Positions 14,192 through 32,952 of a DNA stretch of 64,000 bases are shown here, one piece after another (position 1 is the first letter of the stretch; every line of letters starts with the position of its first letter). Source of the stretch: Planctomycetaceae bacterium (GTDB taxonomy: Bacteria; Planctomycetota; Planctomycetia; Pirellulales; Pirellulaceae); NCBI GenBank assembly GCA_027487485.1, contig JAIYDN010000112.1:186001-250000 (forward strand). Direction: 5' to 3'. The position numbers and the translations under genes were made by a program. The notes under the pieces were generated by a model. The model worked only from the letters and a program-made list of their open reading frames with translations, searched no databases and was not told where the DNA came from.

Positions 14192-14264
14192 TTAGGAGTA
14201 CGCCTGCGGAGATTGTTAAACGAATAGCTCTGATTTAAGAGCTTAGCGCCGCAACAACCAAGCC

Positions 14265-17725: not shown

Positions 17726-17805
17726 GCCGTCCTTTCTCGGATATCGCAATGCCGGTATGATGTAGAACTTCAATTCTTTTCATCTTGCACCGGAAGTCGG
17801 CAAAC

Positions 17806-19502: not shown

Positions 19503-19864
19503 GATGTTTCGTTACTTTGGATCGTCCGAGTGCAATAACAAACAACTTTTGATAATGCCTAAACTCAGCAAGTGTAAGTCGTTGACTCAACGCAAGCCGA
19601 AAACGCTGGATCGAGCACTTACTGCAATGCGAAAATCCTAATCGATGACCTGAGCGAGATCGAGCCCCCAGCTCACATGGAAGGTCAACAACAAAACCAG
19701 AATGAAGATCTGCGATTAAGAACAGGTCTTTCTCCGTCACTCGCCATGACGCAATGAAAAATGCTACCTTTCAGTGTGCACAAGCAACGCGTGGTTCGGA
19801 CGCCGCGATCTGTGTCATTTGCTCCTACCATAATCGATCTCGATGAACACAGACAAGACACGGC

Positions 19865-20033: not shown

Positions 20034-20398
20034 AAATTGAGTCGCGGTCGCGAACCGGCGGTCGCGGACCGCCGGCAAAGGGTGTATCGGCCCGCCGGGC
20101 CTTCAAACTCAGGGGAGAACAGAACGCCCACAAAGATCGATTTGCGAACTGAAGGTTTCCATCAAGTGACGGCAGACCCGCAACTTAGATCCATCGATTT
20201 GTTCTGATTTATTCTTAGTTTCTTAGCTCTGAATTGATCTTCTATTGGCTAGTCAGGATGTCAATACGCGGAGCTTTGCCCCGTAGCACAGTATGGTTTC
20301 GGCGGTCACGCTGCAACACGATGGCATACGAGGACGGAGGTGTGATTGCGAAGACACCGCACATGTGTTTATTACCGTGAAACGGTTACACAACAAAG

Positions 20399-20514: not shown

Positions 20515-20532
20515 TGAATCGCTTGGTTCGTG
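20515..20532 (-). repeat. Truncated attC-like site
   Basis: GCTTGGTTCGTG, 26 bp after the stop of the membrane-protein cassette, matches the R''-side arm of the other sites. The R' half is missing, apparently replaced by the neighbouring repeats. It marks the left end of the recognisable array. Confidence 0.45.
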
Positions 20533-20557
20533 CATATTCTAAAGACTCACCTTTCCA

Positions 20558-21007
20558 TCAGTAAGGGCCAAGCTGGGGATCGGCGATTTTGCGTCGAAAG
20601 GCGAGGATCGCGATGAGAAGCAGAATCGCAGCAGCAACTACGAATATCGAAATGTCCCCAATCGAAGCTGGCGGTTCGAAGAAGAGACTAACCAATAAGA
20701 TGGCGAACGCAGCAGAGCTCCAGATTATCGTGCAATTCCTCGTGTTTTTTGTTAGCTGTCGAGCTGCAAGAAAAAACGCAGAGATCCCAAAGCTCGCGAC
20801 CAGCAGACACGCCCCCGCGTTCAAGTAATCAGCCTCGTTTCTGTAATCGAATCCGGTTTGAACATATTGCCATGCCATAAGTAGCGAGAAGCCTACACAC
20901 AATAAGGCCAATGGATACAGTAGAAATCGAGCAGGATTTCGCAGCGACAACCTCTTCGATTGGGAAGAGTCAAGCTGGAAGATGGTAGGTGCGGCATATG
21001 GGTTCAT
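20558..21007 (-). CDS. Four-helix membrane protein (cassette gene)
   Basis: The 149-aa protein has a short cytoplasmic start (MNPYAAPTIFQ) and four hydrophobic segments (about residues 27-48, 60-82, 90-108, 115-138). No family is recognised. It starts 15 bp after the R' end of the attC-like site at 21023-21114 and ends just before another partial site, the expected layout of an integron cassette. Confidence 0.7.
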   Translation of the reverse strand: MNPYAAPTIFQLDSSQSKRLSLRNPARFLLYPLALLCVGFSLLMAWQYVQTGFDYRNEADYLNAGACLLVASFGISAFFLAARQLTKNTRNCTIIWSSAAFAILLVSLFFEPPASIGDISIFVVAAAILLLIAILAFRRKIADPQLGPY

Positions 21008-21022
21008 AGTATCTTGACCTTA

Positions 21023-21114
21023 GCACGAAAGCTTCAATTCAGCCAGCCCGAGCAGTAGACTCTACGCAAGTCAATACGCCTAATCGAGGGCTTGGTTGCA
21101 ATCGTTTGTTCGTC
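21023..21114 (-). repeat. attC-like site, 92 bp
   Basis: Arms CAGCCAGCCC and GGGCTTGGTTG face each other around a spacer, and the right box is GTTCGTC. The left box is degenerate (ACGAAAG). The site lies between two cassette genes. Confidence 0.65.
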
Positions 21115-21155
21115 CTTGCTTTAGCATTCTAGTTGTATTGATGATGTAAACACGA

Positions 21156-21506
21156 CTACCGGAAACGACTCTCGTACTCTTCGATAGCATTCGGTTTCAA
21201 TGACCGAAGGTTGATCCAGAAATAGTAAAAGAACTCGATTGCAGGGAAAAAGAACGCGAAAATTCGGATTGCAAGCCAAAGACCATCGAGTTCCCAATTT
21301 CTCGTTATGGCACTTGCAATAGTGGCAACAGTTGTTGCCGCAATAAGTATGCGGATGTGAAATTGAACTGGAGGATGCTTGAGATGCGAGAGACCATTTC
21401 GATCATCCAATTGCTTCTTGTGTTTTGGGTAGTGACACTCAAGACATGAAGCATCATACCCACTTCGCAGGCGACCGCAATTTGGACAAGGATGTCTTGG
21501 TGCCAT
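21156..21506 (-). CDS. Zinc-ribbon membrane protein (cassette gene)
   Basis: About 116 aa. It opens with a four-cysteine zinc ribbon (CPNCGRL ... CLECHYP), then two hydrophobic segments (IRILIAATTVATIASAI and IFAFFFPAIEFFYYFWI). Such ribbon-plus-membrane proteins are common but have no assigned activity. I chose the ATG at 21506 over an adjacent GTG. The start is 18 bp after the attC-like site at 21524. Confidence 0.75.
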   Translation of the reverse strand: MAPRHPCPNCGRLRSGYDASCLECHYPKHKKQLDDRNGLSHLKHPPVQFHIRILIAATTVATIASAITRNWELDGLWLAIRIFAFFFPAIEFFYYFWINLRSLKPNAIEEYESRFR

Positions 21507-21523
21507 CACGATTCACTTAAAAG

Positions 21524-21614
21524 GACGAACGAATGAAATCATTGGGTTGCTGCCAGAAACCTGAACATCCGAAAACGCACGACCCGCAACTCCTGTGCAT
21601 TTCTTTGATATGTG
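21524..21614 (-). repeat. attC-like site, about 91 bp
   Basis: Left box GACGAAC; arms GAAATCATTGGGTTGC and GCAACTCCTGTGCATTTC pair with the extra base in TGCA. The right box is degenerate (TTTGATA). Confidence 0.65.
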
Positions 21615-21642
21615 TCTTTGCCGATCGCCATCTCGCACCGCT

Positions 21643-22290
21643 CTAAACAGTCAATGTACCGCGCGCCCATCCGCGAACAACGAGGTATCCGCAAAGCACC
21701 ACGATTGTAAGCCACGATGTTTGAGACAAGTGAGAGTTGCGTTTGGCGATAACTATGATACCGCACATCAAAATCACAGTTGGGCCGATGTCTCCCCATG
21801 GAATCAAGGGGTACACATATGCTGCACTGGAAAATGGCCACCACGGTTGAATCGCCCAGTCCGAAAGGCCGGTACCGCCGGAGACAACCATATCGCACGG
21901 CAAGTGCAAAAGCTGTGCACACATTGCAATTGACGCAAAAACCAAACCACCAAGGCCTCCAATAAGCCATTCCGTACTTCGAGGTGCGGCAGCAACTGCG
22001 TTTTTTGTCATCGCGATAGGAAACCTATTTGCAATGAAACCTATCCAATCCCAACGGATTTGAAAAAATCCTAAGAGCAATGATGCGAGAAAAATCGACA
22101 TTATGCCATGTCCCCAAACTCGGTGCCCGCTTTCGAATCGTTGCATGTCAAACAACATTGGAATTCCATCCCAATCAGGGACATTCGAAGCGACTCCAGC
22201 CATTGCGACTCCACGCCAACCAACGAAACGGTGCATCCCTGTGGCGAACGCGAAGTGTATTCCAACCAACGTGTGTTCAGGTGTTGTCAT
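21643..22290 (-). CDS. YdjM/DUF457-like membrane-bound hydrolase (cassette gene)
   Basis: The 215-aa protein begins with the pattern of the YbcI/YdjM (DUF457) family: TTPEHTLVGIHFAFATG, then NVPDWDGIP and a HRVWGHGIM segment, which supply the His and Asp residues proposed as metal ligands, followed by several membrane spans. Members are described as metal-dependent hydrolases, and one E. coli relative is LexA-regulated; real substrates are unknown. It starts about 38 bp after a degenerate attC-like site and ends 29 bp before another. Confidence 0.75.
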   Translation of the reverse strand: MTTPEHTLVGIHFAFATGMHRFVGWRGVAMAGVASNVPDWDGIPMLFDMQRFESGHRVWGHGIMSIFLASLLLGFFQIRWDWIGFIANRFPIAMTKNAVAAAPRSTEWLIGGLGGLVFASIAMCAQLLHLPCDMVVSGGTGLSDWAIQPWWPFSSAAYVYPLIPWGDIGPTVILMCGIIVIAKRNSHLSQTSWLTIVVLCGYLVVRGWARGTLTV

Positions 22291-22327
22291 TATTCTTCAT
22301 CGCGCCTTGCCCCGCATACAGTCTGAC

Positions 22328-22410
22328 ACGTAACGCTAACGATCACCTAGCGGCGGCAAGTAAAGTTTCCATCAAGAGTCGAACGCCCCGCGACTTGGGG
22401 CGAGTAGAGC
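22328..22410 (-). repeat. Damaged attC-like site
   Basis: The left arm GATCACCTAGCGGCGG and the following spacer are almost identical to the site at 26879-26968, but the right arm reads CCGCGACTTGGGGCGAG and no outer box follows. The left box is ACGTAAC. Confidence 0.55.
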
Positions 22411-22527
22411 GAGCTCTTTCTTCCAAGCTTAGCATAAAGCTTCGGCTTGGTCGATTGAGCCTCGCCCCCTCCCCGAACCGGGCGCACGCACTGATCGCAT
22501 CCGGCCGCCCACGATGGACCAGTCATG

Positions 22528-22697
22528 GTCGCAGCAATCGGTTCGTCTTCCAGGCCCGAATGGGCCGATACATCCTTTGCCGGTGGCCCGCGGCCACTGG
22601 TCCCGCCCCCTTGATCCTCAAAAGCCCCGAATGGGGCGACACAGATCGCTCATCTTCGCCGGCATTGTCGCGCTGTGTCGGCCCGTCAGGCCATAAG
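22528..22697. repeat. Duplicated block A, copy 2
   Basis: Direct copy of 19865-20033. The two copies bracket three cassettes (about 2.5 kb). Confidence 0.75.
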
Positions 22698-23047
22698 ACT
22701 CGAGGAAGTTCCGATTGCCTAGCAACAACCAAGGCGTCCAAACAACAAAACCAGAAACGAGATCTGCGGCCATCTGACAAATCTGCGGTTAAGAACGGGG
22801 CTTTCTCCAGCCGTCCAGTATTTCAACCGCAGATGACGCCGATTCTCGCCGATTACCGAGCATTTACTTTTGTAGTCATCTTGTAGAAAAAAAATCTACG
22901 AAATGTGAGTAGAGCGAACAGGCCTCAGACTCCGAGTCTTCTTTCATCCAATGCCATGACGCAATGAAGAATGTTACCTTCCAGTATGCACACACCTTGG
23001 GCAGATTCCAATAGTTACAATCTTTCGGAGCTCAATACCATTCAGGG

Positions 23048-23223
23048 TTCGACAGTCACTCGATACCTTTCGTCCTCGCCACCTTTCTGCCCAAAAAGTG
23101 CGACACCGTGCTTCAACATGGCTGTTACCAAACACGCTGCAACACTCGATACCAAGCCTCTGGCTAAGAGCTACTCAGGTGGGAGTCGCCCCCTTGTTTT
23201 CAAACCATTTCCAGTACGCACGT
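23048..23223. repeat. Direct repeat left of the toxin-antitoxin pair
   Basis: 176 bp, about 95 percent identical by eye to 23846-24023, same orientation. The two copies bracket the parE-like/antitoxin genes. Confidence 0.85.
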
Positions 23224-23244
23224 GCTATGCTTCGTTCGTTCACG

Positions 23245-23541
23245 TTAGCGACGTTGGAGCAACGCATCGATGTCCGCGGGACGTGACCGACCGTCGAGGA
23301 CCGCGACCACCTCTACGCCCGTTGTGACCATTCGGTAATAGATAAGAAAAGGATGACAGCTTGCAATCTTGCGATGGTAGCCAAAATGTCTTTCGTGAAT
23401 ACCAGCCGTCTCACTCAGCGAATCAATGTCTTCAAAGATCCGTTGGTAAAAATAATCGCCGGCGCCGTAGCCTTGCCGGTCGTAGAAAGCCACGCCTTCC
23501 GCAATGTCCAAATATGCCTCATTGCGAACTTCGACGTTCAT
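23245..23541 (-). CDS. ParE/RelE-family toxin
   Basis: The 98-aa protein has the ParE/RelE layout: an N-terminal strand (MNVEVRNEAYLDI), two helices with YFYQRIFEDID, a central HERHFGYHRKI segment, and the last strands YRMVTTGVEVVAVLDGRS. ParE-type toxins act on DNA gyrase, RelE types cleave mRNA at the ribosome; the sequence alone does not separate them. Its start overlaps the antitoxin end by 23 bp. Toxin-antitoxin pairs are typical stabilising cargo of large cassette arrays. Confidence 0.88.
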   Translation of the reverse strand: MNVEVRNEAYLDIAEGVAFYDRQGYGAGDYFYQRIFEDIDSLSETAGIHERHFGYHRKIASCHPFLIYYRMVTTGVEVVAVLDGRSRPADIDALLQRR

Positions 23542-23749
23542 CGATTATTCGCTTTACTGCAATCTTTGCCTCAGCAACAGACATATTGGGTTCGCCACTT
23601 GGATTTGTGGTGCGGTAGGCAAGCACATCCCCGTGCCAAGCAGGAGATTTGAATGTTCGTGAATCAGCAGCCAAACGCTGCCAAAGCAGATCAAAGGCAG
23701 CCTGCTGCTGCTCGGGATTCAACGTGTCAATAAAAGTTTCAATTTCCAT
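23519..23749 (-). CDS. Antitoxin of the ParE/RelE pair
   Basis: About 76 aa from the ATG at 23749 (MEIETFIDTLNPEQQQ), with a helical N-terminal half and a C-terminal end (MSVAEAKIAVKRIIDERR). It resembles small addiction-module antitoxins that precede ParE toxins, including the typical AWHGDVLA segment before the C-terminal helix. The frame extends upstream to 23833, but those residues are unlike the family. It overlaps the toxin start, consistent with coupled translation. Confidence 0.8.
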   Translation of the reverse strand: MEIETFIDTLNPEQQQAAFDLLWQRLAADSRTFKSPAWHGDVLAYRTTNPSGEPNMSVAEAKIAVKRIIDERRSSQ

Positions 23750-23845
23750 CGCTCGTCTCCATTGCCGCATTATAACGCGGACTAGCGCGGCTGTCGACAC
23801 ATCGAGTTTAGTGGGGCTCGTGACCGACGCCATATGTCACCCAGT

Positions 23846-24023
23846 TTCGACAGTCAGTCGATACCTTTCGTCCTCGTCACCTTTCTGCCCAAAAAGTGCG
23901 ACGCCGTGCTTCAACGTGGCTGTTACCAAACACGCTGCAACACTCGACACCAAGCCTCTGGCTAAGAGCTACTCTGGTGGGAGTCGACCCCACTTGTTTT
24001 CAAACCATTTCCAGTACGCACGT
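23846..24023. repeat. Direct repeat right of the toxin-antitoxin pair
   Basis: Second copy of 23048-23223. It supplies the last 20 or so codons of the membrane-protein gene at 23962-24561, so that gene's end is repeat-derived. Confidence 0.85.
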
Positions 24024-24561
24024 TCATCAGATTGTTCGTCGATTCTTGATTTGGTATGCCAGATCGAGAATCGATCCACGGATAAAGTTGATCGAGTCGC
24101 TGCTCCCGTTCTTGAGTAAGTCTGTCATTCTCTTCGTCCGCTTGCAGCTTAAGTTTCGGCAAAAACACAATACCTAGCGCCGAGAGTAAAAGCATCACAG
24201 AAATGCACAAAAGATACTCTTGGTTACGAAAACCGAATTCTTCAATTGGTTGTTTGCTGTTCAGGTAGGCAAAGATTCCGAATCCGGAATACACGCCACC
24301 AAGTAGGATGGAAAAGCTACGAACTGACAAGAGCGGAAAGCGTCCGTGCAATCCAAATTGTATTGATCCGAACCATACAAAGTACCAAAGCAAAGTCAGA
24401 ACACCGCAAGCTATCGCGGATACGGCGTCAGCAGCCAGCATAGTCGGTTGAGTAACTGCACCCAACGCAGCAGGGATGAATCTCAGCAGACGCAATGCCC
24501 AATATGCACCCAAAATGAAGTGGGTTGCGTGTAGGATTTGGAAGAGTTCAAAGAAGCTCAT
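23962..24561 (-). CDS. Membrane protein with repeat-derived C terminus (cassette gene)
   Basis: About 199 aa. Hydrophobic segments follow MSFFELFQILHATHF, with a charged coiled stretch (DEENDRLTQEREQRLDQLYP) toward the end. I start it at 24561, 9 bp after the attC-like site, because the longer frame to 24621 runs through that site. The last residues (VRTGNGLKTSGVDSH) are encoded by the direct repeat, so the original end was probably replaced. Family not recognised. Confidence 0.65.
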   Translation of the reverse strand: MSFFELFQILHATHFILGAYWALRLLRFIPAALGAVTQPTMLAADAVSAIACGVLTLLWYFVWFGSIQFGLHGRFPLLSVRSFSILLGGVYSGFGIFAYLNSKQPIEEFGFRNQEYLLCISVMLLLSALGIVFLPKLKLQADEENDRLTQEREQRLDQLYPWIDSRSGIPNQESTNNLMNVRTGNGLKTSGVDSHQSSS

Positions 24562-24569
24562 AGTACGTC

Positions 24570-24662
24570 GACGAACGCTTGGGATCAGATGGCGTGAGTA
24601 AGTTGCAAATGCAATGACCAAAAACGGTCGACTGAACGCTCATCTGCATTCCTTTGCTCGTC
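24570..24662 (-). repeat. attC-like site, 93 bp
   Basis: Left box GACGAAC and right box GCTCGTC. Inner arms GGGATCAGATGGCG and CGCTCATCTGCATTCC pair with an extra base in TGCA. Confidence 0.75.
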
Positions 24663-25137
24663 GATCTAAGGCTTGCATCTAGCGTGGTTCGAACTCGAAT
24701 TGGCCATTTCTGTGGTCAGCAAAAAGAATAGTAACAACGCATGATCATACGAGCTGATACGTCACTTCGCAACAGTTGGCCGAAATCTGGCTTTGATCCT
24801 GAAAGGATCGCCGATAGTAGCCGGGGGTTTGACCGCTAGGGCACACCCCCGGTCTCGTTCGCATGCAATGTTTTCGATCTCGGAGGAGATCGCAGATTGC
24901 GTCTGCTGTCCACTGTGATCCCTTCAGGATCAACAAGATAGCCTGCGACAATATCCGGGGGGGACGCTTCGCTCAACCCCCGGCTACCTTCCTTAACCCC
25001 TACCGGGGTAATGAGACGATGATGTGTGACAACAAGGTTGTCGATCTCTTGAGTAATGCTTGGAACGATTGATCGATCGATGACCCATCGATTGGATTGT
25101 TAGCAATCGTTCCATCGAAACACATAACGCTCGACTC
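24663..25137. other. Cassette-sized stretch with REP-like palindromes, no gene
   Basis: Between two attC-like sites there is no supported gene. The DNA carries an inverted pair: GATCCTGAAAGGATC near 24795 and GATCCCTTCAGGATC near 24918, each beside CCGGGGG/CCCCCGG motifs. A REP pair seems to have replaced or filled a cassette. Confidence 0.6.
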
Positions 25138-25228
25138 GACGAATGCCCCACATCACGGGGGGGCGGGAGTTGGTATTGATTCCAAAATCCGCTGCCCGTC
25201 GCCACTCCCGTGCATGCGATGGTTCAGC
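25138..25228 (-). repeat. attC-like site, 91 bp
   Basis: Boxes GACGAAT and GTTCAGC; arms CATCACGGG and CGTGCATGCGATG, plus GGGAGTTGG with CCACTCCC. It lies 22 bp beyond the 25250 stop codon. Confidence 0.7.
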
Positions 25229-25249
25229 CTACGCCTGAAGACCAGTCTA

Positions 25250-26092
25250 CTATTTTGTGAACAGATCTGGGGACAGCTTCACGTTTCCTAGCTCGTTGTT
25301 GCCGGCGTGGATCTGGACTGTAAATCGTCCCATTGGCCAGTGCTGTAGATAGCCGGCTTTCTCGTGCCAAGCCTGAAACTCCCATTTGCCAAGTGGCAGG
25401 TCAGTGAATGAGAACGAACCATCCGTGGAGGAAACGGCGGAGTACGGATTGTCGTGTATAAGGATGAAACCGTTCGCCCAGATTTGGTGATCAGATCGAA
25501 ACGGCAACGGAATTTTTTCACGACTGGAAAAGGTCAATTCTCTCTTCGATTCCGGTGCCAACAATAGGTTTACAGATTGATTTTGAATCGCCTCAAGATG
25601 AAATCCGAAACCGATGGCGTCGGAGTTTTCGATTTGAAGCGGTTGATTCGTAGCGACTACCAAGACACGAGGCGCGAATTGCCCGTCCTTGATTTGTAGC
25701 ATGGCCGGTTGCGCCTTCGCCATGTTCACCGCGGTGTCGGTGATATTCGTACTCGTAGCGAACACGACGACGTTTGCGATACCTCCGCCCTTGTTCACGA
25801 GCAAAGAATTATCGCCCGTCTTGGGACGGATGCCTTTCTGCAAGTATTCGCGATAGGCAAGTTCGACGCCGGATACTCTGCCAACACTGCCGCGAGAGAC
25901 TGGGGTGTTGGGATCGATAGCGTCAAATCGAGACTGACCCGCAGCCTTCGGTGGGTCGCCGTCGTAAAGAAAGCGGCCTTTCAGTGAACCAAGTTGAGGG
26001 GCCCGCGAATCATCGGTGGTACCGGTTTGAGCTTGGAGGCAAACAACGTTTATCACGCCCCATAGAATCGTAGCTACATGCAAGGTCTTCAT
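25250..26092 (-). CDS. Exported plastocyanin-like / carboxypeptidase-regulatory-like protein
   Basis: About 280 aa with a signal peptide (MKTLHVATILWGVINVVCLQAQ). The middle (LLVNKGGGIANVVVFATST) and the C-terminal part (SSTDGSFSFTDLPLGKWEFQAWHEKAGYL) match the cupredoxin-like and carboxypeptidase-regulatory-like beta-sandwiches of exported planctomycete proteins related to methylamine-utilisation accessory proteins. Typical blue-copper ligands are not obvious. It is larger than the other cassette genes but still sits between two attC-like sites. Confidence 0.78.
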   Translation of the reverse strand: MKTLHVATILWGVINVVCLQAQTGTTDDSRAPQLGSLKGRFLYDGDPPKAAGQSRFDAIDPNTPVSRGSVGRVSGVELAYREYLQKGIRPKTGDNSLLVNKGGGIANVVVFATSTNITDTAVNMAKAQPAMLQIKDGQFAPRVLVVATNQPLQIENSDAIGFGFHLEAIQNQSVNLLLAPESKRELTFSSREKIPLPFRSDHQIWANGFILIHDNPYSAVSSTDGSFSFTDLPLGKWEFQAWHEKAGYLQHWPMGRFTVQIHAGNNELGNVKLSPDLFTK

Positions 26093-26140
26093 ACGTTGAA
26101 CTCGCCTGACTTGGTTGAGCAAAATGGTTCCACTTCCGTG

Positions 26141-26232
26141 GCCGAACGCTAACGATCAGCCAGCCCAAGCAAGAGACTCCACGAAAGTCAAAAACGGATG
26201 ATCGAGGGCTTGGCTGCATCGTTTTGTTCGTC
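26141..26232 (-). repeat. attC-like site, 92 bp
   Basis: Boxes GCCGAAC and GTTCGTC; arms ACGATCAGCCAGCCC and GGGCTTGGCTGCATCGT pair over most of their length, with an extra base in TGCA. Confidence 0.8.
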
Positions 26233-26281
26233 GATAATTGTAGCGGACCGAATACCCAGCCACAATCATGTAGGTGCAAAC

Positions 26282-26518
26282 ATGCCGACGACATCAGACG
26301 ATGCAAAGTCAATTTACGAAGCGGAATTGAAAGAAACATTAGAACGAGATTTTTTGGGGCAGCATGTTGCGATAGTGAGCCAATCGCGACGACATTTTGT
26401 ACGTCCTACATTTTTAGAGGCCGCCTTAGCGGCTCGTGAGGCTGAACCTGACCATATACCGTTTGTGATTCGAATCGGACACGATGCAGCCTTTCACATC
26501 GGGGCAGTGTCATTTTGA
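26282..26518 (+). CDS. Small DUF5678-like protein paired with the protease
   Basis: The 78-aa protein contains FLGQHVAIVSQ and a helix (FLEAALAAREAEPDHIP) that resemble the short DUF5678-type proteins found beside clan AA proteases. It ends in a frame overlap with the next gene's TTG start. The pair is on the plus strand, opposite to the other cassette genes, between two attC-like sites. It may act as an antitoxin-like or adaptor partner, but that is inference. Confidence 0.6.
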   Translation: MPTTSDDAKSIYEAELKETLERDFLGQHVAIVSQSRRHFVRPTFLEAALAAREAEPDHIPFVIRIGHDAAFHIGAVSF

Positions 26519-26877
26519 AAGCATGGATTGACGAAGAGAATCGGGCGATGGTGGAACTCCAAGTTGCCAACCATGCTAGGGGGCAGCGAAAGACAATTCA
26601 AGCTTGGATTGACACGGCTTTCGACGGTCATCTCGTTATGTCCAAATCTGAAATCGAAAGATTGGGTCTTGGGGTTTTAGCTGACACCGATGCAGTGCTC
26701 GCAGACGGGTCGAAAGCTCGATTACGGTGTTACTACTGTATTGTAGAATGGATGAGCCAGATCGTTCCCGTGCAAGTAGTTGAAAATGTTGGCGGGCTCC
26801 CACTGATCGGGACTTCTTTGCCGTCAAATGTTGATCTGCGAATCAACTACACGGACAGAGTCTGCACGCTGTCTTAA
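26515..26877 (+). CDS. Clan AA retropepsin-like aspartic protease
   Basis: The 120-aa protein has the retropepsin fold: the catalytic-type D-T-A (WIDTAFDGHLVM), a helix after it (SEIERLGLG), a flap-like segment and the late strand LPLIGTSLPSNVDLRI. Such single-domain proteases work as dimers. It starts at TTG, overlapping the previous stop by 4 bp, so the two genes are translationally coupled. Its end lies 1-2 bp from the next attC-like site. Confidence 0.78.
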   Translation: MKAWIDEENRAMVELQVANHARGQRKTIQAWIDTAFDGHLVMSKSEIERLGLGVLADTDAVLADGSKARLRCYYCIVEWMSQIVPVQVVENVGGLPLIGTSLPSNVDLRINYTDRVCTLS

Positions 26878-26878
26878 A

Positions 26879-26968
26879 GAGGAACAATACCGATCACCTA
26901 GTGGCGGCAAGTAAAGTTTCCATCAAGAGTCGAACGACCCGCCGCTTGGGTGCATCGGGTTGTTCGTC
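26879..26968 (-). repeat. attC-like site, 90 bp
   Basis: The best palindrome in the array: GAACAA and TTGTTC outer arms, then CCGATCACCTAGTGGCGG with CCGCCGCTTGGGTGCATCGG. The extra base lies in TGCA of the second arm. Confidence 0.85.
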
Positions 26969-27441
26969 TGTTGTATAGTGTTTCGAGCCTGGGCATTTCG
27001 CAATACGAGTTGGACCCAGTTTCGAACAGCAAAATCTTTGTCGGTCTCTAGGGCACGAATGGCATCAAGTTCAGTCTCAGTTAACTCAGGCCACGTACCC
27101 AACGATTGTACTGATTGTCGGCGAACGTCGCGGGAAGGATCTTTGAGCGCGCTAATAATTGCGGACTTCGCTTTGATTTGATCACGAGCATGCTTTTCCA
27201 AATTCATTATTGCAAGCGATCGATGCGATGGGGGGCGAGAAGCATCCGTGGCAATCGATATAAGGTCGGCAACAAAGCTAGCTACGCTTCTCGTATCAAT
27301 GAAACCAGCGCGAAGTGCCAAATCGGCCAAGGCAACAACGACGACTTCGTTTTCCGTGCTTGCAATCCGAGCAAGTATAGCGGGCAGTTCTTTCGCGGCT
27401 CTGCTTCGAAGGCCGTCTTCTTCCGTCATGTCAGACTCCAT
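26923..27441 (-). CDS. HEAT-repeat-like helical protein (cassette gene)
   Basis: About 172 aa of paired helices of HEAT type (AIISALKDPSRDVRRQSVQSL, ALADLALRAGFIDT). Its last residues (TNNPMHPSGGSFDS) are encoded inside the attC-like site, as is typical when a cassette frame runs into its recombination site. The start may be 27441 (MESDMTEED) or 27429; upstream frame lies in the next attC. Function unknown, perhaps protein binding. Confidence 0.72.
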   Translation of the reverse strand: MESDMTEEDGLRSRAAKELPAILARIASTENEVVVVALADLALRAGFIDTRSVASFVADLISIATDASRPPSHRSLAIMNLEKHARDQIKAKSAIISALKDPSRDVRRQSVQSLGTWPELTETELDAIRALETDKDFAVRNWVQLVLRNAQARNTIQQTNNPMHPSGGSFDS

Positions 27442-27442
27442 A

Positions 27443-27534
27443 GACGAACGGCGGCGACCACCCATGTCGTCGCAAAAAACTACAATTCCAATTTGCGGCC
27501 GACTGGCGACTTGGGTGCATCGCTTGGTTCGTCC
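27443..27534 (-). repeat. attC-like site, 92 bp
   Basis: Boxes GACGAAC and GTTCGTC are perfect complements; arms CGACCACCCATGTCGTCGC and GGCGACTTGGGTGCATCG. Confidence 0.8.
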
Positions 27535-27575
27535 TCGTCCCGAGGTGAAAGGAGTACATCAATAGTTCATTGCGA

Positions 27576-28043
27576 CTATTTCTCAATCCCCGCAGCACGG
27601 GCAAATGCATGGAAATCAAGTGCGGTATTCTGGTCGTGAACGATTCGCCAAGACCCTTCTTGTAGCTGAAAAACATAAACGAGCCAAGTCTCAAAGGCAG
27701 CAGTTTCCTTGTTGGGTTTGTACGAGTAGCGGACTAGGGCCATTGCCATGTCTTCACCAACCACTTTGTGGACTACTTTGCCATTCCATGTCCAATTTGG
27801 ATCGTTGAACCACTGTTCGTGAATGCCGATAGTCTCTGCTGGTGTTTTGAAGGCGTGGCCGTTCTGAACAACCGTGTAAAGAGTATCTCCAAGAGTTAAA
27901 TGCGACTTAAATGCGTCGATATCCCGGTTGGCTATGGCAGCAAAGTGGTCTTTAATCGCTGCGTCAAAATCTGGCTTCATGTTAGTCGGTGCTTTCGAGA
28001 GTAATACCGGGGAGTTCATCGCGGATACGATCCCGACAACCAT
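27576..28043 (-). CDS. SnoaL/NTF2-like protein (cassette gene)
   Basis: About 155 aa. The region DFDAAIKDHFAAIANRD, then GIHEQWFNDPNW and the strand-rich end WLVYVFQLQEGSWRIVHDQNT, fits the NTF2-like/SnoaL cone fold. Members bind small hydrophobic ligands or act as enzymes; the substrate is unknown. The start is uncertain: 28043 is the first in-frame ATG after the attC-like site and begins a hydrophobic stretch, and 27980 (MKPDFDAA) is the first ATG before the fold. Confidence 0.72.
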   Translation of the reverse strand: MVVGIVSAMNSPVLLSKAPTNMKPDFDAAIKDHFAAIANRDIDAFKSHLTLGDTLYTVVQNGHAFKTPAETIGIHEQWFNDPNWTWNGKVVHKVVGEDMAMALVRYSYKPNKETAAFETWLVYVFQLQEGSWRIVHDQNTALDFHAFARAAGIEK

Positions 28044-28102
28044 GACGATTCCAGTGACAAGACAGACAGATTTCGGGACATGGTGTTGGATTATTGTTGT
28101 TG

Positions 28103-28196
28103 GACGAACGCCTGGGATCACCCAGGTCGAGTAGTAAACAAATGCACCGACCAAAACCGGGCGACCGAGCCCTTGGTGTGCATGCCATTGTTATTT
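28103..28196 (-). repeat. attC-like site, 94 bp
   Basis: Boxes GACGAAC and GTTATTT; arms GGGATCACCCAGG and CCCTTGGTGTGCATGCC. Its right edge is 3 bp from the next stop codon. Confidence 0.7.
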
Positions 28197-28199
28197 GGT

Positions 28200-28640
28200 C
28201 TATTGTATAGATGAGTGTGCTGACCATGTCCCGCTGGTCGGTGGAAAATCCCATTGTTCGCCATTGAGCCATCTCGTCTCTGCTCGTATCTGCCAGCTAC
28301 CTTGGATGCGATTGCGATTCTCGAAAAACTCCCCAGTGTAGTAAAGTATGTAAGAAGGTTGACCTGGAACAACAGTGAGCATCCCTGACTCGTTAGTAAC
28401 CCATAAACTTGCATACCTCTTTCGAAAGGTGATTCGAGATTTAGTCAATCTCCCTTGAATTGACGCTGGTTCTGTTATCCCCGGTTCAGAGTCAAGAACT
28501 TTCCCTGTGAAGCGGCCAAACCAACCGATTGCCAGTTGCATTTCAAATTCAGTATCTGCATACACATCAGTGAGACCATTGAATGATTGGTCGTATGAGT
28601 AAACACCGCGCCAACGCGTCGCAATCGATCGGTCTGACAT
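28200..28640 (-). CDS. Hypothetical protein (cassette gene)
   Basis: The 146-aa protein looks beta-rich (IGWFGRFTGKVLDSE, YILYYTGEFFENRNRIQGSW), perhaps a small lipocalin-like or beta-barrel fold. I do not recognise a family. It has no signal peptide. It fills the space between two attC-like sites almost completely: 24 bp before, 3 bp after. Confidence 0.68.
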   Translation of the reverse strand: MSDRSIATRWRGVYSYDQSFNGLTDVYADTEFEMQLAIGWFGRFTGKVLDSEPGITEPASIQGRLTKSRITFRKRYASLWVTNESGMLTVVPGQPSYILYYTGEFFENRNRIQGSWQIRAETRWLNGEQWDFPPTSGTWSAHSSIQ

Positions 28641-28664
28641 GTTACCTTTCTACCAAATAATGGC

Positions 28665-28746
28665 GGCCAACACCGAGTGGCCGCAAACAAAGTCTCTAAA
28701 GTCAATCGCGGCCGACCGGCCACTTCGGTGCATGGCTTGGTTCGTC
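28665..28746 (-). repeat. attC-like site, 82 bp
   Basis: Boxes GGCCAAC and GTTCGTC; arms CACCGAGTGGCCGC and GGCCACTTCGGTGCATGG. The right arm is identical to that of the site at 29916. Confidence 0.8.
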
Positions 28747-28747
28747 C

Positions 28748-29170
28748 TTATGCTGCTCGGCGGGAGGCGAAGTAATCAACAAGCATCTGGCCAAAGTCTT
28801 CCTCGCGATCTTGAACCGCACAAGTCAATTCATCAATCAGTCGGTTTATCGTAGCATTGTCAGATTGTATCAAACTCCCACGTGACTGGCGATCAGATGG
28901 GACGCATCCGTACGCAAGCATCGCATTAACCAATTTTCGAGCCCGAGTGGCGAGCAACGAACAACCAATGTCCTCGAATGCAATGGCGAGTAGTTCAATA
29001 TCATCACCGGCTAAATTGTACAGGTATCCTGATACACTTCCGAGGCAAATCTCAAAGTCGGCATTCGATATCACGTAAATTGTTCGTTCGGTCGAATCGA
29101 GTCCATTTGCGCCAAGGCGAAACCCGCGATCCATTATCCCCTCAATCGCATTGTTCAAATTGGAACTCAT
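28748..29170 (-). CDS. DMP19/DUF4375-like protein (cassette gene)
   Basis: About 140 aa from MSSNLNNAIEGI. The segment VSGYLYNLAGDDIELLAIAFEDIGC with following helices resembles the DMP19-like (DUF4375) domain, where a gly-phe-tyr turn precedes an EAL-IGA helix. Some members sit near polymorphic-toxin or immunity genes; the role is not established. The stop lies within 2 bp of the attC-like site at 28665-28746. Confidence 0.6.
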   Translation of the reverse strand: MSSNLNNAIEGIMDRGFRLGANGLDSTERTIYVISNADFEICLGSVSGYLYNLAGDDIELLAIAFEDIGCSLLATRARKLVNAMLAYGCVPSDRQSRGSLIQSDNATINRLIDELTCAVQDREEDFGQMLVDYFASRRAA

Positions 29171-29188
29171 AGGGACACTTCTATGAAG

Positions 29189-29280
29189 GACGAACGTCAC
29201 TCATCACCTAGCCCCCGGAAGTGATGTCGCTAAAGTTAGTAAGGCACCGGCGGGGGCTTAGGTGCATGGTATTGTTCTTT
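29189..29280 (-). repeat. attC-like site, 92 bp
   Basis: Boxes GACGAAC and GTTCTTT; arms CATCACCTAGCCCCCG and CGGGGGCTTAGGTGCATG, with extra bases only in the second arm. Confidence 0.85.
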
Positions 29281-29295
29281 ATTTTTTGGGGCATC

Positions 29296-29898
29296 TTAGT
29301 GCGGAAATCCAATCCACTCATCATACCATTCACGAATCGTCCCGTCTTCGCAGGAACTTGCCGCCCACATCGACTCTAACAATTCGACATGATGGTTGGA
29401 ACGGCGATATAAGTCGTAAATTGCGGTTGATCCTTTTCCTTCGACGAGGACCCAAAACTGATCTGGATTTACTTCCGGGTAACTTTGCGAAAGTTGAGGA
29501 TGAAAGTTCGATGGGATAGTTCTGTGAACAGTCCACCATAGATACCAATACCACCCGTCTACTTCTGTATCTAATTGTTCAAACCATCGGATTTTTTCTT
29601 CAACTGTCAAAAACACCAGACAGCTAGAGTACTTGCCTAGCATTTCGTTTGCGGCGAGTAGGCCGACCGGAGACGCATGCAGTACACCTACGAAACTGGG
29701 ACTGAAAGGTGAATATGGTCGAAAGGTTCCCATCCGATATCGTAGAAGCGAGTATTCTATTCTCTCGGATTGAGAGAGTGTTTCGAAATCGGGTAGTGGG
29801 TTTTCTTCACGGCATTGAGTTTCGTATTTCCGCAGGCGAGGAAGCCATCTTCTTCGGGCGTCGTCAATTTGGTTCCTCGTGTAGAAAACGGATCGCAT
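29296..29898 (-). CDS. Hypothetical protein, about 200 aa (cassette gene)
   Basis: The protein begins MRSVFYTRNQIDDARRRWL and is rich in aromatic residues (WYWYLWWTVHRTIP). No family is recognised. The frame continues upstream to 30135, but that part is the translation of the attC-like site (KTMHRSGQSAALHF), so I start at 29898, 17 bp after the site. It ends 15 bp before the next site. Confidence 0.68.
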   Translation of the reverse strand: MRSVFYTRNQIDDARRRWLPRLRKYETQCREENPLPDFETLSQSERIEYSLLRYRMGTFRPYSPFSPSFVGVLHASPVGLLAANEMLGKYSSCLVFLTVEEKIRWFEQLDTEVDGWYWYLWWTVHRTIPSNFHPQLSQSYPEVNPDQFWVLVEGKGSTAIYDLYRRSNHHVELLESMWAASSCEDGTIREWYDEWIGFPH

Positions 29899-29915
29899 CT
29901 TCGTCTGTTCTTCCA

Positions 29916-30007
29916 GCAGAACGGCAACCATCAACGAGTGGCCGCCAAGAAAACTTACAAAATGGAGCGCCGCCGACTGGCCACTTCGGTGCATGGTTTT
30001 GTTCGCA
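29916..30007 (-). repeat. attC-like site, 92 bp
   Basis: Boxes GCAGAAC and GTTCGCA; arms CCATCAACGAGTGGCC and GGCCACTTCGGTGCATGG. Confidence 0.85.
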
Positions 30008-30011
30008 TTCG

Positions 30012-30614
30012 TTAGTCCGTGGCGGAGGCGACAACTACGATTAGTAGCATATCTGACTTTCGAGAGATTGTCCAAAAGAATGCCCCCCACCATTCGTGCC
30101 CATCGTCGAAGCAATTGGAACAGGCTGTGTCCCAAGAGTAAATCTCAAGGTCTGAATTTGCATCGGGCCCAGAGAGAGCGTCAACCAATTTGTCGAACAG
30201 TAGCATGTTCGATTGCATTGACCCTAGTATTCCATACGGCGGATGAAAAAATGCAGTCAACAATCCATCGACGTTCGAAACATTCCACGAATTTGCGGCA
30301 AGCTCTTTCGGTCCAGGAGCGCGAGTGCCAATGAATTCCTCAAAGCTGATCCTCTTGCCAGTTAGTCGGGATTCGTCCCATTCGAAAGGTTTAACGTTTG
30401 CGTGTGGTGGAAAATCGGTCCAGTCGAAGTTCTTCCCAACCTCACGATTCGCTTCCTCGCATTTCTGAAGAAAGGCCTTGGCAACCGCATAGTGCGACTC
30501 TTTAACAGTGCGATTCTTGTCATTAACGAAGAAATCGAACTCCAGAACACAATAAATCGCTTCCATTTCGCGCAACAGGTTCTTAAACGGATCTGGTGGT
30601 TCGACCTTCAGCAT
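30012..30614 (-). CDS. Hypothetical protein, 200 aa (cassette gene)
   Basis: The protein begins MLKVEPPDPFKNLLREMEAIYC and ends with strands and a WGAFFWTISRKSDM segment. The helix-strand mix and isolated setting are like small immunity-type proteins, but I recognise no family. It starts 16 bp after the site at 30631 and ends 4 bp before the next. Confidence 0.68.
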   Translation of the reverse strand: MLKVEPPDPFKNLLREMEAIYCVLEFDFFVNDKNRTVKESHYAVAKAFLQKCEEANREVGKNFDWTDFPPHANVKPFEWDESRLTGKRISFEEFIGTRAPGPKELAANSWNVSNVDGLLTAFFHPPYGILGSMQSNMLLFDKLVDALSGPDANSDLEIYSWDTACSNCFDDGHEWWGAFFWTISRKSDMLLIVVVASATD

Positions 30615-30630
30615 GACATGTTTCGACAGA

Positions 30631-30720
30631 TGCGAACGACCAAAATCACGCGGTTGCGACCAAGTGACTTACCATCAGGAAACGCGAGATTCGCAACTCG
30701 CGTGCATTTTTTTGTCATCC
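30631..30720 (-). repeat. attC-like site, 90 bp
   Basis: Left box TGCGAAC; arms AAATCACGCGGTTGCG and CGCAACTCGCGTGCATTT; right box GTCATCC is weak. Confidence 0.78.
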
Positions 30721-30768
30721 GCTTGCTGCAATAGGCTTTCAAAACTTTAGGGGATTGCGGATTGCGGA

Positions 30769-31260
30769 TCAGATGCCTCCGTGAGCCTTTCGGTCGTGGG
30801 CGACTCCGCGAAGAAAAGATGCGAAAGCGTAGTAGTTAAAGAATACGCCGTACGAGTACGCTCGAATATTTGCCATCGCCGAATCGGGTATCATCATTGA
30901 CGGGGTGACGCAACGAATGCAGCGGTATTGTGAATCAAAGACCCAAGCATCGCCATCAGAGTCGCCCGTCCAATATGCAAACTGCACAAAACCAGAGTGT
31001 GCAGGGAGTTGGTCGAGATTCTCCTGGTTCTTTATAAATGTTCTAGCGCCGAAAACATGGATTATCTTTCCGTCATACGAGTCTGCTCGCAGAATGCCCG
31101 TCAAAACATCCCAGAACCAATCGTCCAGTGATTTCGGTTGAGAACTGTGAGTGATGTATTCCCGGATTTGCAAAAGGTCATCCTGTGAGGCCGCCGTTTG
31201 GGGAATGACTGCACCAAGCTCCTGGAAAAGGTCAATCAACCGGTCACTTGCAGTTTTCAT
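30769..31260 (-). CDS. SMI1/KNR4-like hypothetical protein (cassette gene)
   Basis: About 163 aa from MKTASDRLIDLFQELG. The centre (FVQFAYWTGDSDGDAWVFDSQ) resembles the acidic loop of SMI1/KNR4 (SUKH) proteins, many of which are immunity proteins against secreted toxins; this match is weak. Its ATG overlaps the stop of an upstream 56-aa membrane gene (ATGA), so the two are translationally coupled in one cassette. Confidence 0.62.
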   Translation of the reverse strand: MKTASDRLIDLFQELGAVIPQTAASQDDLLQIREYITHSSQPKSLDDWFWDVLTGILRADSYDGKIIHVFGARTFIKNQENLDQLPAHSGFVQFAYWTGDSDGDAWVFDSQYRCIRCVTPSMMIPDSAMANIRAYSYGVFFNYYAFASFLRGVAHDRKAHGGI

Positions 31261-31427
31261 TGTCGCGACTCCCAAATCGAAAAGGAGACGAAACCTGCCG
31301 AAAACAAGATCGCACCAGTGATGGCAAGCGCACCATCCTGCGATCGACCAAGCGCGAAAATTCCCACAACGCCCAGCAGGCATAAAGCGGCTCCAACGAT
31401 TTGAGCAAGGATGCTGCTTGTTTTCAT
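31257..31427 (-). CDS. Small two-helix membrane protein (cassette gene)
   Basis: A 56-aa frame, MKTSSILAQIVGAALCLLG to FSIWESRQ, has two hydrophobic segments (about 5-26 and 33-51) split by a short basic turn (GRSQDG). Its stop overlaps the start of the SMI1-like gene by 4 bp (ATGA), and its start lies 40 bp after the attC-like site. This overlap is what persuades me it is real. The pair recalls toxin/immunity or membrane-sensor pairs, but that is only inference. Confidence 0.65.
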   Translation of the reverse strand: MKTSSILAQIVGAALCLLGVVGIFALGRSQDGALAITGAILFSAGFVSFSIWESRQ

Positions 31428-31466
31428 CAGATCGTCTTCGGGAAAGGAAAAGACTGTAATTCAGGA

Positions 31467-31560
31467 GGATAACGCCAGTGGTCACCGATGTCGCCGGAGA
31501 CCACGTTTCAAAAAGTTAGGGAGGCTCCGGCGGCGACTTCAGTGCACCACATTGTTCCCT
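31467..31560 (-). repeat. attC-like site, 94 bp
   Basis: Boxes GGATAAC and GTTCCCT; arms GTGGTCACCGATGTCGCCGG and CCGGCGGCGACTTCAGTGC. Confidence 0.82.
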
Positions 31561-32015
31561 CTTGTCTGATTCCAGCAGGTGGCTGTTCGAGCATCCGTCA
31601 GGTTTCGAGTACGAGGTTCTGGAGCCGATTCCATTTGCTTTATGGTACCCGATTGTATCTTGACGTGCTAGCAAGCCCTCACCCCGCCTTCGGCACCCCT
31701 CTCCCGCGCGCGGGAGAGGGGCTGGTGGTGAGGGCGTGACGCACTGCGCTTGCGATAAGGGAATTGACTTGGGTGTCGATACACCAAGAGATGGCTACCG
31801 CGTCTAGCGGTGACCATCTCGGAACATGAGGAACTCGGTCGCCATCGTTCTGAGTCACAAGCGAGAACGGGATTAGCTGCCTCTCACAAAGTCACGAAGG
31901 CACCAAGTCATCGAGTCAATTCGCCCAAGCAACTGAACAGCCAACCAAAGCCGTGATATCAACGCTCTTCATTGGCACTCGAAGTTTCAACCGAGATCGA
32001 AACTCCACTAGATAG
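31561..32015. other. Cassette-sized stretch with a hairpin, no gene
   Basis: Between two attC-like sites, 455 bp hold no convincing frame on either strand. A strong nested palindrome lies at 31674-31736. It may be a gene-less cassette, or one whose gene has been replaced by a repeat. Confidence 0.55.
31674..31736. repeat. Nested palindrome, REP-like
   Basis: The inner core at 31696-31721 is a perfect 26-bp palindrome (CCCCTCTCCCGCG and its complement). The outer arms are GCCCTCACCCC and GGTGGTGAGGGC. No T tract follows. Confidence 0.75.
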
Positions 32016-32107
32016 AGGGAACGACCGGCATCACCGAGCACGAGCAGTTGACTCAACGCAAGTCAAAACGGCCGATCGAGTGCTTCGTGTGCAGGCCATG
32101 GTTCGGC
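32016..32107 (-). repeat. attC-like site, 92 bp
   Basis: Boxes AGGGAAC and GTTCGGC; arms GGCATCACCGAGCACG and GAGTGCTTCGTGTGCAGGC. Confidence 0.8.
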
Positions 32108-32112
32108 CTTCA

Positions 32113-32571
32113 TTAGTCGGAGCTAGATCCGATGAATAGCACAGACTCGCCGCCGGTCCGGATCAGGAACGCGAAATCCCAGAATACAGGATAGAACGGA
32201 TGACCTTCCTTTAGCCAAAACGACTGAATTTCATCGAACGAGTCATCCAACACATGCTGTATTTTACAAATTACACTGTCAAAGTCGACTCTGCTTTCTG
32301 GTGAGTCGAGATAATCTAAGCTTGGATGCGATCCGTGGTCGCCTCGGTATCCAAGTGCGTCTTTAAATTCGTCAATGACATCTCTCTTGGTTACGGCGTG
32401 CGCATTACCAATTTCCGCATTGTCGCCCAGGAGCGTTCGCACAACTGTTTCCAACGGTTCACCGTTAGCTTCCTTGGACACAAAGAATCGGAAGTCGGCG
32501 TTATAGTTCAGGCTCGAGCGATAGAGCTTTCGCGAGATCGCATCTAGTGAGACATTGATCTCTAAGTACAT
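32113..32571 (-). CDS. Hypothetical protein, 152 aa (first cassette gene)
   Basis: The protein begins MYLEINVSLDAISRKLYRSS and ends with WDFAFLIRTGGESVLFIGSSS. It looks like an alpha/beta domain of the small immunity-protein kind, without a clear family. It starts 13 bp after a lone GTTCGGC-type half-site (minus strand 32591-32585), and its stop is 5 bp from the next attC-like site, so it would be the first cassette of the array as read leftward. Confidence 0.66.
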   Translation of the reverse strand: MYLEINVSLDAISRKLYRSSLNYNADFRFFVSKEANGEPLETVVRTLLGDNAEIGNAHAVTKRDVIDEFKDALGYRGDHGSHPSLDYLDSPESRVDFDSVICKIQHVLDDSFDEIQSFWLKEGHPFYPVFWDFAFLIRTGGESVLFIGSSSD

Positions 32572-32584
32572 GCGATCCTTTCAG

Positions 32585-32591
32585 GCCGAAC
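32585..32591 (-). repeat. R'-like half-site at the right end of the array
   Basis: GCCGAAC (minus strand GTTCGGC) precedes the first cassette gene by 13 bp. No palindrome accompanies it. It may be all that is left of an attI or attC site, since no integrase gene is found beyond it. Confidence 0.45.
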
Positions 32592-32952
32592 AATGAATTC
32601 TCCCCATAGTCATTTATAGGGAAATGGATTCTAGCACGGGGCAGCCGGGGAAAATAGGTTTTCCCCTTGGCTGAGCCACGTCAAATACCGCGACAAACCA
32701 CCGCAATCACTTCTCTTGGAAGCATTAGTGATTCTTGTAGCGTCTGTTCAGAATCTATCCCTTTTGTGCTGAACCGCCAAACCTTTTGATTGGCGGAGCC
32801 GTTCTTGTTTCGCCATCTATCAGAGGTAGCGCTATGAGCGTCGAACCGTTTCTAGACCGGTTAGCCAGATGTAGGCTTCGCCCCAATGACGGCTCCTGGA
32901 TGCCTGGCTGGTTTGCTGGGTACGCAATCTAGCGCACCAAACCTGTTGCGGT

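Follow-up and report, generated by a model that had tools for sequence, protein, structure and literature searches.

Are the palindromes that alternate with small genes at positions 20515 to 32591 of the window (the whole 64,000-nucleotide stretch analysed here) the attC sites of an integron cassette array and, if so, why does no intact integrase gene (intI) stand beside them? The initial annotation had counted about 15 such palindromes of 82-94 bp. To recover them systematically, we built a covariance model (R1) on 13 sites found by hand in the window, which match by construction, and searched the window for matches up to E 1; a relaxed GAAC/GTTC scan with RNA folding had given 151 pairs, mostly noise, and was replaced by the hand-read sites and the model. 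The alternation was borne out: 14 full attC sites scored 43-92 bits between 21.0 and 32.1 kb, accompanied by weak or truncated ones, and every match of the array lay on the same strand. Matched lengths were 90-95 bp, slightly above those first given, and only one of the 14 full sites, at 25137-25228, had not been foreseen. In the following list, + refers to the given bottom strand of the sites, the cassette genes being on the - strand, and scores are those of R1.

32015-32107, +, attC 1, 68.8 bits
31466-31560, +, attC 2, 68.6 bits
30630-30720, +, attC 3, 69.1 bits
29915-30007, +, attC 4, 77.6 bits
29188-29280, +, attC 5, 78.4 bits
28654-28746, +, attC 6, 81.4 bits
28102-28196, +, attC 7, 70.6 bits
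27442-27533, +, attC 8, 80.9 bits
26878-26968, +, attC 9, 78.7 bits
26140-26232, +, attC 10, 92 bits
25137-25228, +, attC 11, 43 bits, not among the model-building sites
24569-24662, +, attC 12, 79.2 bits
22346-22399, +, truncated attC (half site), 17.2 bits (E 0.011), covering only model positions 20-75
21523-21613, +, attC 13, 74 bits
21023-21114, +, attC 14, 73.6 bits
20442-20531, +, truncated attC, 11.3 bits, E 0.91, alone not significant; R'' side mirrors its own cassette start 7/8
20118-20207, +, weak attC, 35 bits
19549-19640, strand as the rest of the array, doubtful attC, 25 bits

The initial annotation had allowed that the palindromes might be equally common outside the array. Because the remaining 51.4 kb of the window gave only matches of 11.1 and 19.3 bits (E up to 1), the attC-like sites are not repeats spread through the window. 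The right bound first proposed, 32591, falls immediately past the attI crossover described below, and the left bound has to be moved: the array is read as extending left of 20515 by way of the weak site at 20118-20207, the region of which is 79% identical over 199 bp to a site-bearing stretch of another array, on contig C73 of the same genome.

The aligned window sites fold as attC hairpins with compensatory changes, and the unpaired bases expected by the initial annotation are there: 13/13 aligned sites share the unpaired T that follows C and the unpaired C within TGCA, and TGCA is present in the 3' arm of 145 of 205 sites genome-wide. Paired cells amounted to 85.5%, compared with 66.7 +/- 1.8 in shuffled and 34-41% in slid alignments, while one of the five covariation measures, pairs changed on both sides, was unexceptional (reached by 74/500 shuffles). 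Predicted folding energy gave no preference for the bottom strand, which was favoured at 101 of 204 sites, the top strand at 95, with 8 ties. G precedes TT in 195/205 genome sites, and GTT is followed by C in 132 of 204 sites and by A in 71, the outer box being mostly GTTC. The outer boxes GAAC...GTTC originally described are indeed seen, but as a rule they proved too strict, TAAC, TAAT, GAAA and GAAT also occurring in the window; the best mate of these boxes is the start of their own cassette.

This relation was quantified in a closure test, in which the R'' box of each site was compared with the first bases (TT...) of its own cassette and with the facing box in the same site. For 15 window cassettes the closure sum was 102 compared with 67.0 +/- 5.0 after shuffling (0/20,000 shuffles reached it); without site 25137-25228, its two cassettes being joined, it was 94 compared with 61.8 +/- 4.9 (14 cassettes); and for 166 cassettes outside the window in the same genome it was 1013 compared with 657 +/- 15 (0/5,000 shuffles). 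Of 14 window cassettes, those at 29.9-29.2 and 26.9-26.1 kb fit the in-site box better than their own start, by one base, and one tied; the cassette at 24.6-22.3 kb was left out of the comparison. The closure signature shows that the cassettes were inserted as circles, with the crossover at G|TT of the R' box. One cassette can also be followed into other arrays.

24575-25143, -, multicopy cassette, crossover to crossover, with copies in other arrays

Copies 89-91% identical to it lie in arrays on contigs C59 and C73 and at 133 kb on C75, with a partial copy on C79 and six matches, some partial, in species G024; in all four copies aligned, similarity stops at the crossover points.

We considered whether the sites could instead be ordinary intergenic palindromes (REP elements, terminators or MITEs) between small genes, given that the genome does contain other repeats, for example at 22511-22698 and an inverted repeat at 31672-31738. 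This explanation is barely credible in view of the closure signature, which held also on the cassettes outside the window, the single orientation and near absence outside the array, the clustering rather than single scattering of the 208 attC matches in the genome stretches searched, the exact-boundary cassette copies, and the presence of integron-type integrases. We conclude that an integron cassette array, as first proposed, is supported by fold, covariation, closure, exact-boundary copies, and integron integrases of full length, which occur elsewhere in this genome and, in relatives, next to similar sites; the array belongs to a known kind of element.

The cassettes carry the following genes.

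32113-32571, -, no Pfam match
30769-31263, -, no Pfam match; start codon picked within a longer ORF
30012-30614, -, no Pfam match
29296-29898, -, no Pfam match; start picked within a longer ORF
28748-29170, -, DMP19-like (PF14300)
28200-28640, -, no Pfam match
27576-28067, -, SnoaL-like (PF13474)
26923-27465, -, HEAT repeats (PF13646); stop within attC 9
26198-26877, +, two genes of a single cassette, antisense to the array; similarity of the second to clan AA aspartic proteases falls below cut-off (44.5 bits against 57.35)
25250-26122, -, weak cupredoxin and carboxypeptidase-regulatory matches, below cut-off
23245-24561, -, stretch with three leftward ORFs, none with a Pfam match
21643-22290, -, YdjM inner membrane protein (PF04307)
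21156-21509, -, no Pfam match
20558-21007, -, below-cut-off matches only

Sites had been said to begin 1-35 bp past a stop codon; the nearest listed leftward stop is 1-48 bp away in 10/15 sites and 350-690 bp away in the other five, where ORF 26923-27465 ends inside the site, one cassette has its genes on the opposite strand and three have no listed gene. The cassette at 26233-26878, described as reversed, does carry two + strand genes, but the attC sites on either side of it keep the common orientation. Two ORFs at 23245-23833, picked by eye as a toxin-antitoxin pair, found no family support in Pfam or NCBIfam, and an Rfam search of ten array loci of the same genome gave no group II intron above cut-off.

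At its right end the array adjoins two features that bear on the missing integrase.

32589-32706, +, attI-like platform of ~118 bp, also conserved at other array origins, with its AA|C crossover at 32590/32591
32834-32932, +, intI stub of 32 codons plus stop, divergent from the array; ATG 243 bp from attI

The array starts at the attI-like junction 32590/32591, where the first cassette start, TTCGGCCT, is mirrored 8/8 by the R'' box of the first attC. Over 118-119 bp, the window attI (J0) shares 86% identity with C6:28401-28510 of this genome and with a locus in the closest relative (G002:C375); it is 73-74% identical over 121-122 bp to two loci of genome G015 and 82% over 49 bp to a third; it is unlike the attI of contigs C85 and C110. 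Searching the window with full-length IntI at E 10 gave nothing convincing, and the stub was found only with full intI reading frames, including the N-terminal extension, as queries: by tblastn, 32825-32926 matches the N-terminal part of a 490-aa intI reading frame in genome G006 (a short match, 47% over 34 aa; E 2e-6, or 6.5e-5 in a larger target). The attI-to-ATG spacing is comparable in G015 (237 and 246 bp). Apart from this stub, no intact intI lies beside attI.

With at least two attC sites and no recognisable intact intI nearby, the locus falls within the operational definition of a CALIN (an IntegronFinder category), as the initial annotation had it; it differs in that an attI-like site and an intI stub remain. 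Because both are present, a decayed complete integron is the better description, and the best reading on sequence grounds is an integron that lost its integrase. Specifically, we think it very probable that this is the chromosomal integron of a Pirellula-like planctomycete in which ~15 cassettes were captured serially at attI and the divergent intI was later lost save its first 32 codons. An IntI would have moved the cassettes, folded as single-stranded hairpins, out of circles and into attI. Once intI was deleted, capture at this attI would have been frozen, while full-length IntI from C85 and C110 may still act in trans to excise or shuffle the cassettes that are left.

Alternatively, an IntI from elsewhere could have put the first cassette at a non-attI site (attG), where the array then grew. 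Such off-target insertion is among three proposed CALIN routes (PMC8618304), and it would suit a locus without an intact intI in a genome with full-length intI genes elsewhere, in which the array origins at C75:141 kb, on C59 and at C73:70 kb showed no attI-type junction. The junction here, however, is the conserved ~118-bp element common to the C6, G002 and G015 origins, and the intI N-terminus lies at the expected place; if accepted, stub and conserved attI refute an attG origin at this locus. Because of these two features, we set it aside as unlikely. Still less likely is that the locus is the distal part of a longer integron with its intI elsewhere and that the junction is a misassembly: although the genome is a 114-contig draft in which cassette repeats end contigs, other genes flank the locus on either side within a 311-kb contig, and the repeat that the stub enters was also recognised by eye downstream of the C85 intI.

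Elsewhere in the same genome there are three integron-type intI genes of full length, one of which is more divergent. Those on C85 and C110 score 399.6 and 389.9 bits against a TIGR02249 cut-off of 265, and by eye their products appear to have the catalytic residues and IntI-specific insertion; the best PDB match of C110 IntI is IntI4 (2a3v, E 1.2e-70), in an alignment that runs through both. The genome has further broken platforms, with at least seven platforms of several intI types overall, and is unusually rich in integron cassette arrays.

Among relatives, attC matches occurred in 25/25 genus genomes searched and strong intI in 13/25; one closed genome (G005) has 46 attC matches and no recognisable intI. 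On six distinct contigs of relatives (seven loci, L142 and L222 being one contig), attC sites of this model were located upstream of a divergent intI, with the first cassette closing 8/8 on a junction upstream of that gene. The initial annotation had pointed to fixed gene order in relatives as an argument against an array. None was found, within narrow reach: G002 is 91.6% identical at 14254-18798, followed by other sequence without attC for its contig's last 1.7 kb, a right-flank comparison with eight relatives via an HlyD-like protein gave no match, and the same array turned up in no other genome. More tentatively, the arrays of the present genome might form one distributed integron, a possible reading that we hold with reserve, in which ~200 cassettes over many arrays, with several attI platforms of at least three intI types, most of these platforms having a dead integrase, would be one pool served in trans by the surviving IntI, a state that would be genus-wide and extend to the closed genome G005.

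The initial annotation had taken planctomycete attC sites to be undescribed; this does not stand, as attC sites of Planctomycetes were given a covariance model of their own in 2021 (PMC8352920). The arrays resemble sedentary chromosomal integrons of the Vibrio superintegron type in having attC hairpins with a G|TT crossover, an attI and, within the same genome, a divergent intI; many of the cassette genes belong to no known family, and attC matches number ~200 per genome. Vibrio superintegron arrays are of comparable size, with ~200 attC, and the textbook outer box is GTTRRRY. The Vibrio type differs in forming one long array, whereas here there are many loci with several attI platforms, and in its outer box. 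Integron arrays range from 1 to >200 cassettes, and those of Xanthomonas persist where intI has been lost through frameshifts, stops or large deletions (PMC12444791). The present locus is similar in that intI is inactivated while the array remains; in Xanthomonas, however, intI, where kept, is at one ancestral place beside ilvD, whereas here the platforms and intI types are spread within one draft genome. At the sequence level, the locus shows how an integrase-less array can arise, with attI kept and intI cut to a stub, which is one proposed CALIN route. If cassettes still move in trans, intI loss would not end the evolution of the array, and a phylum other than Proteobacteria would hold dispersed cassette stocks as large as a superintegron. 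The same genome offers a second case: the arrays at C73:228-241 kb and 275-281 kb both come after an attI-type junction and an intI that has stops as well as an internal deletion, the latter at the same place in both.

We read 13 window sites by hand, aligned them, folded the alignment and counted pairs; the modelled strand, the plus strand of the window, is the bottom strand relative to the leftward cassette genes. RNAalifold placed 15 inner pairs in the 13-site alignment, 11 of them with compensatory change, and the outer box and two inner pairs were added manually, giving the 23 pairs used in the pair count. Over these 23 pairs and 13 sites, 85.5% of cells pair versus 66.7 ± 1.8% after shuffling and 34–41% after a slide of 1–3 columns, and 59 cells carry a both-sided change versus 21.4 ± 3.9 in shuffles. 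Further pair types number 32 versus 26.9 shuffled (reached by 15 of 500 shuffles); the number of pairs with both-sided change, 13 versus 10.9 shuffled, is unexceptional, with 74 of 500 shuffles reaching 13. Two unpaired columns of the 3′ arm, the T after C and the C of TGCA, are invariant in 13/13 sites of the window alignment. The covariance model recovers its 13 source sites by construction; it also finds window sites at 25137-25228 (43 bits), 20118-20207 (35 bits) and 19549-19640 (25 bits), and its top score in the remaining 51.4 kb of the window is 19.3 bits. Paired cells, invariant unpaired bases and the closure signal described below bear out the initial annotation, which had proposed an integron cassette array with attC-like folds.

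Cassettes would enter as circles via a crossover at G/TT. The outer box (R″) of an attC, the cassette attachment site, would then be the complement of the bases that open its own cassette, since the two would have formed a single site in the circle. For the 15 testable window cassettes, the match of R″ to its own cassette start over 8 bases sums to 102, versus 67.0 ± 5.0 with starts randomly reassigned (0 of 20,000 shuffles); leaving out site 25137 gives 94 versus 61.8 ± 4.9, and the cassette at 24.6-22.3 kb, which lacks R″, lies outside this test. Where both values exist (14 window cassettes), the own match sums to 95 and the match to the facing box within the site to 64, the own match being better in 11, worse by one base each in two and tied in one; the fixed-offset version for 14 window pairs gives means of 6.21 versus 4.71. 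Genome-wide, with fixed offsets and excluding pairs separated by over 1,500 bp, sites shorter than 80 bp and contig-end sites, 180 cassettes have a mean own match of 6.11 versus 4.07 in-site (own better in 140, worse in 21, tied in 19), and closure in the 166 cassettes outside the window is 1013 versus 657 ± 15 (0 of 5,000 shuffles). Across the genome, the base preceding TT is G in 195/205 sites, and among 204 sites the third cassette base is C 132 times and A 71 times.

The cassette at 24575-25143 has copies with 89–91% identity in arrays on contigs C59 and C73 and at 133 kb of the window's own contig, C75, as well as a partial copy on C79; G024, a different species of the same genus, gives six full or partial matches, and none was found in 25 of 27 genus genomes at E 1e-10. 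Similarity among the aligned copies (window, C75:133 kb, C59 and C73) spans from AA/C at the left end to GAA/ at the right end, and the flanks are unrelated save for a few attC-motif bases. The base after the right-hand GAA/ is T in the window copy and C in the other aligned copies. Judged from these alignments, cassettes appear to move with exact ends.

The first window cassette starts at junction 32590/32591. The DNA to the right of this junction matches the C6 array origin and a contig of a relative (G002:C375) at 86% identity over 118–119 bp, two loci of the relative G015 at 73–74% over 121–122 bp and a third G015 locus at 82% over 49 bp, and this platform sequence is present in 3/27 genus genomes at E 0.01. 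An N-terminus of the integrase gene intI follows it in two of the G015 loci. In the window, it is followed by 32 codons and a stop, within a stretch matching the N-terminal part of the intI reading frame of G006 (47% over 34 aa; E 2e-6, or 6.5e-5 against a larger target). The ATG of this stub lies 243 bp from the crossover, compared with 237 and 246 bp in G015. At the C6 origin, searching gave no convincing intI match. The initial annotation, which saw no intI in the window and a likeness to a CALIN, was right that the array lacks a full integrase, but an N-terminal intI stub follows the attI-like junction. We conclude that the window element is a real integron array of known kind that has lost its integrase. 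Excerpts of PMC8618304 name routes to CALINs, intI loss among them, and excerpts of PMC12444791 describe intI inactivated by deletions in Xanthomonas. The window stub continues into a repeat also present, by eye, downstream of intI on C85, and to the right of the array a 2373-aa gene (33771-40892) looks by eye like a large repeat-rich surface protein.

At seven loci on six distinct contigs of relatives (L142 and L222 share one contig), an AAC junction lies upstream of a divergent intI and gives 8/8 closure with the first cassette, and attI, the array origin, is therefore located independently in those relatives. The scan covered all positions, and the AAC junctions were picked from a list that also held weaker or unsuited matches. 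Two further loci in the genus, L219 (G019:C148) and L228 (G007:C446), have a different intI type in the same direction as the adjacent cassettes, a "reverse" integron layout.

Elsewhere in the source genome, C85, C110 and C95 carry TIGR02249 (IntI family) matches above cut-off and free of stops. The C110 protein has IntI4 (2a3v) as its best match among solved structures, and its five best named relatives come from MAGs labelled Pirellula sp., Planctomycetaceae or Planctomycetota, so that a planctomycete source, as supposed in the initial annotation, is likely. C85, C110 and C17, the last with an intI that is cut by eye, share 76 bp of first cassette beside two different attI types; one cassette therefore seems to have entered several platforms. 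C73 holds two arrays; an attI-type junction and an intI with stops precede each of them, and the internal deletion in intI is at the same place in both:

L083 12721-13341, oriented: deleted intI copy on C73, same internal deletion
L085 10676-11366, oriented: deleted intI copy on C73, same internal deletion

Therefore either a platform already carrying the deletion was copied, or the deletion predates the split. In 361.5 kb (24 fetched loci) the attC model has 212 matches at E ≤ 0.01, 189 of at least 40 bits by hand count; 208 sites, weak ones counted, remain once four duplicate hits on the opposite strand and a solitary match lying outside arrays are dropped and the half site at 22346 (E 0.011) is included, with one orientation within each array. 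For three arrays (C75:141 kb, C59 and C73:70 kb) searching did not find an origin, and at least eight arrays run into contig ends. The unusual feature is the dispersal over many partly dead platforms within one genome, as represented by a draft assembly (7.49 Mb, 114 contigs). A single attC (60.6 bits) lies just 3′ of the full-length C110 intI (L034 13124-13216); the cassette side of this site points away from intI, and its surroundings look non-coding and repeat-rich. On C95 (L033 1-4000), sequence that by eye resembles a phage or plasmid primase-helicase comes after the third integrase of integron type (338.8 bits), and the opposite contig end holds an attC array.

When up to 107 candidates per genome were scored, attC matches occurred in all 25 genus genomes searched, out of 27 (own included), and in 6/15 genomes outside the genus but in the same order; intI at E ≤ 1e-60 was found in 13/25 and 1/15, counts that take in several incomplete MAGs and one partial match. 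G005 (one contig, 100% complete) has at least 46 attC matches at E ≤ 0.01, some weak, among 150 of 2763 candidates scored; a TIGR02249 search at 1e-60 found nothing there, and matches to the G018 IntI do not exceed 57.6 bits. The initial annotation took planctomycete attC sites to be undescribed in such a form; this is mistaken, as excerpts of PMC8352920 (also PMC9176274) present a Planctomycetes attC model, one of 11 taxon models with 51–505 sites each. Planctomycete integrons or intI genes have been on record since at least 2008–2009 (excerpts of PMC2426708, PMC2674596 and PMC3108266), and more than one IntI is given for 22% of IntI-bearing genomes (excerpt of PMC9024848). Among the papers listed, with a minority of subscription journals covered, none addressed a multi-platform planctomycete integron genome in its title or the start of its abstract.

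As to cassette contents, the cassette at 26233-26878 carries a pair of genes in antisense orientation to the array; the second one resembles clan AA aspartic proteases (below cut-off). This cassette had been called reversed; its genes are antisense, yet the flanking attC sites are not reversed. Group II intron D1D4-6 matches at 22920-23188 (minus strand; 73.4 bits, above gathering score) and 23815-23986 (minus strand; 30.9 bits, below it) flank two small ORFs, and the C59 array and the region near C75:129 kb contain similar pieces of 130–180 bp. A strong inverted repeat with the core CCCCTCTCCCGCG sits at 31672-31738, in a cassette that has no obvious gene.
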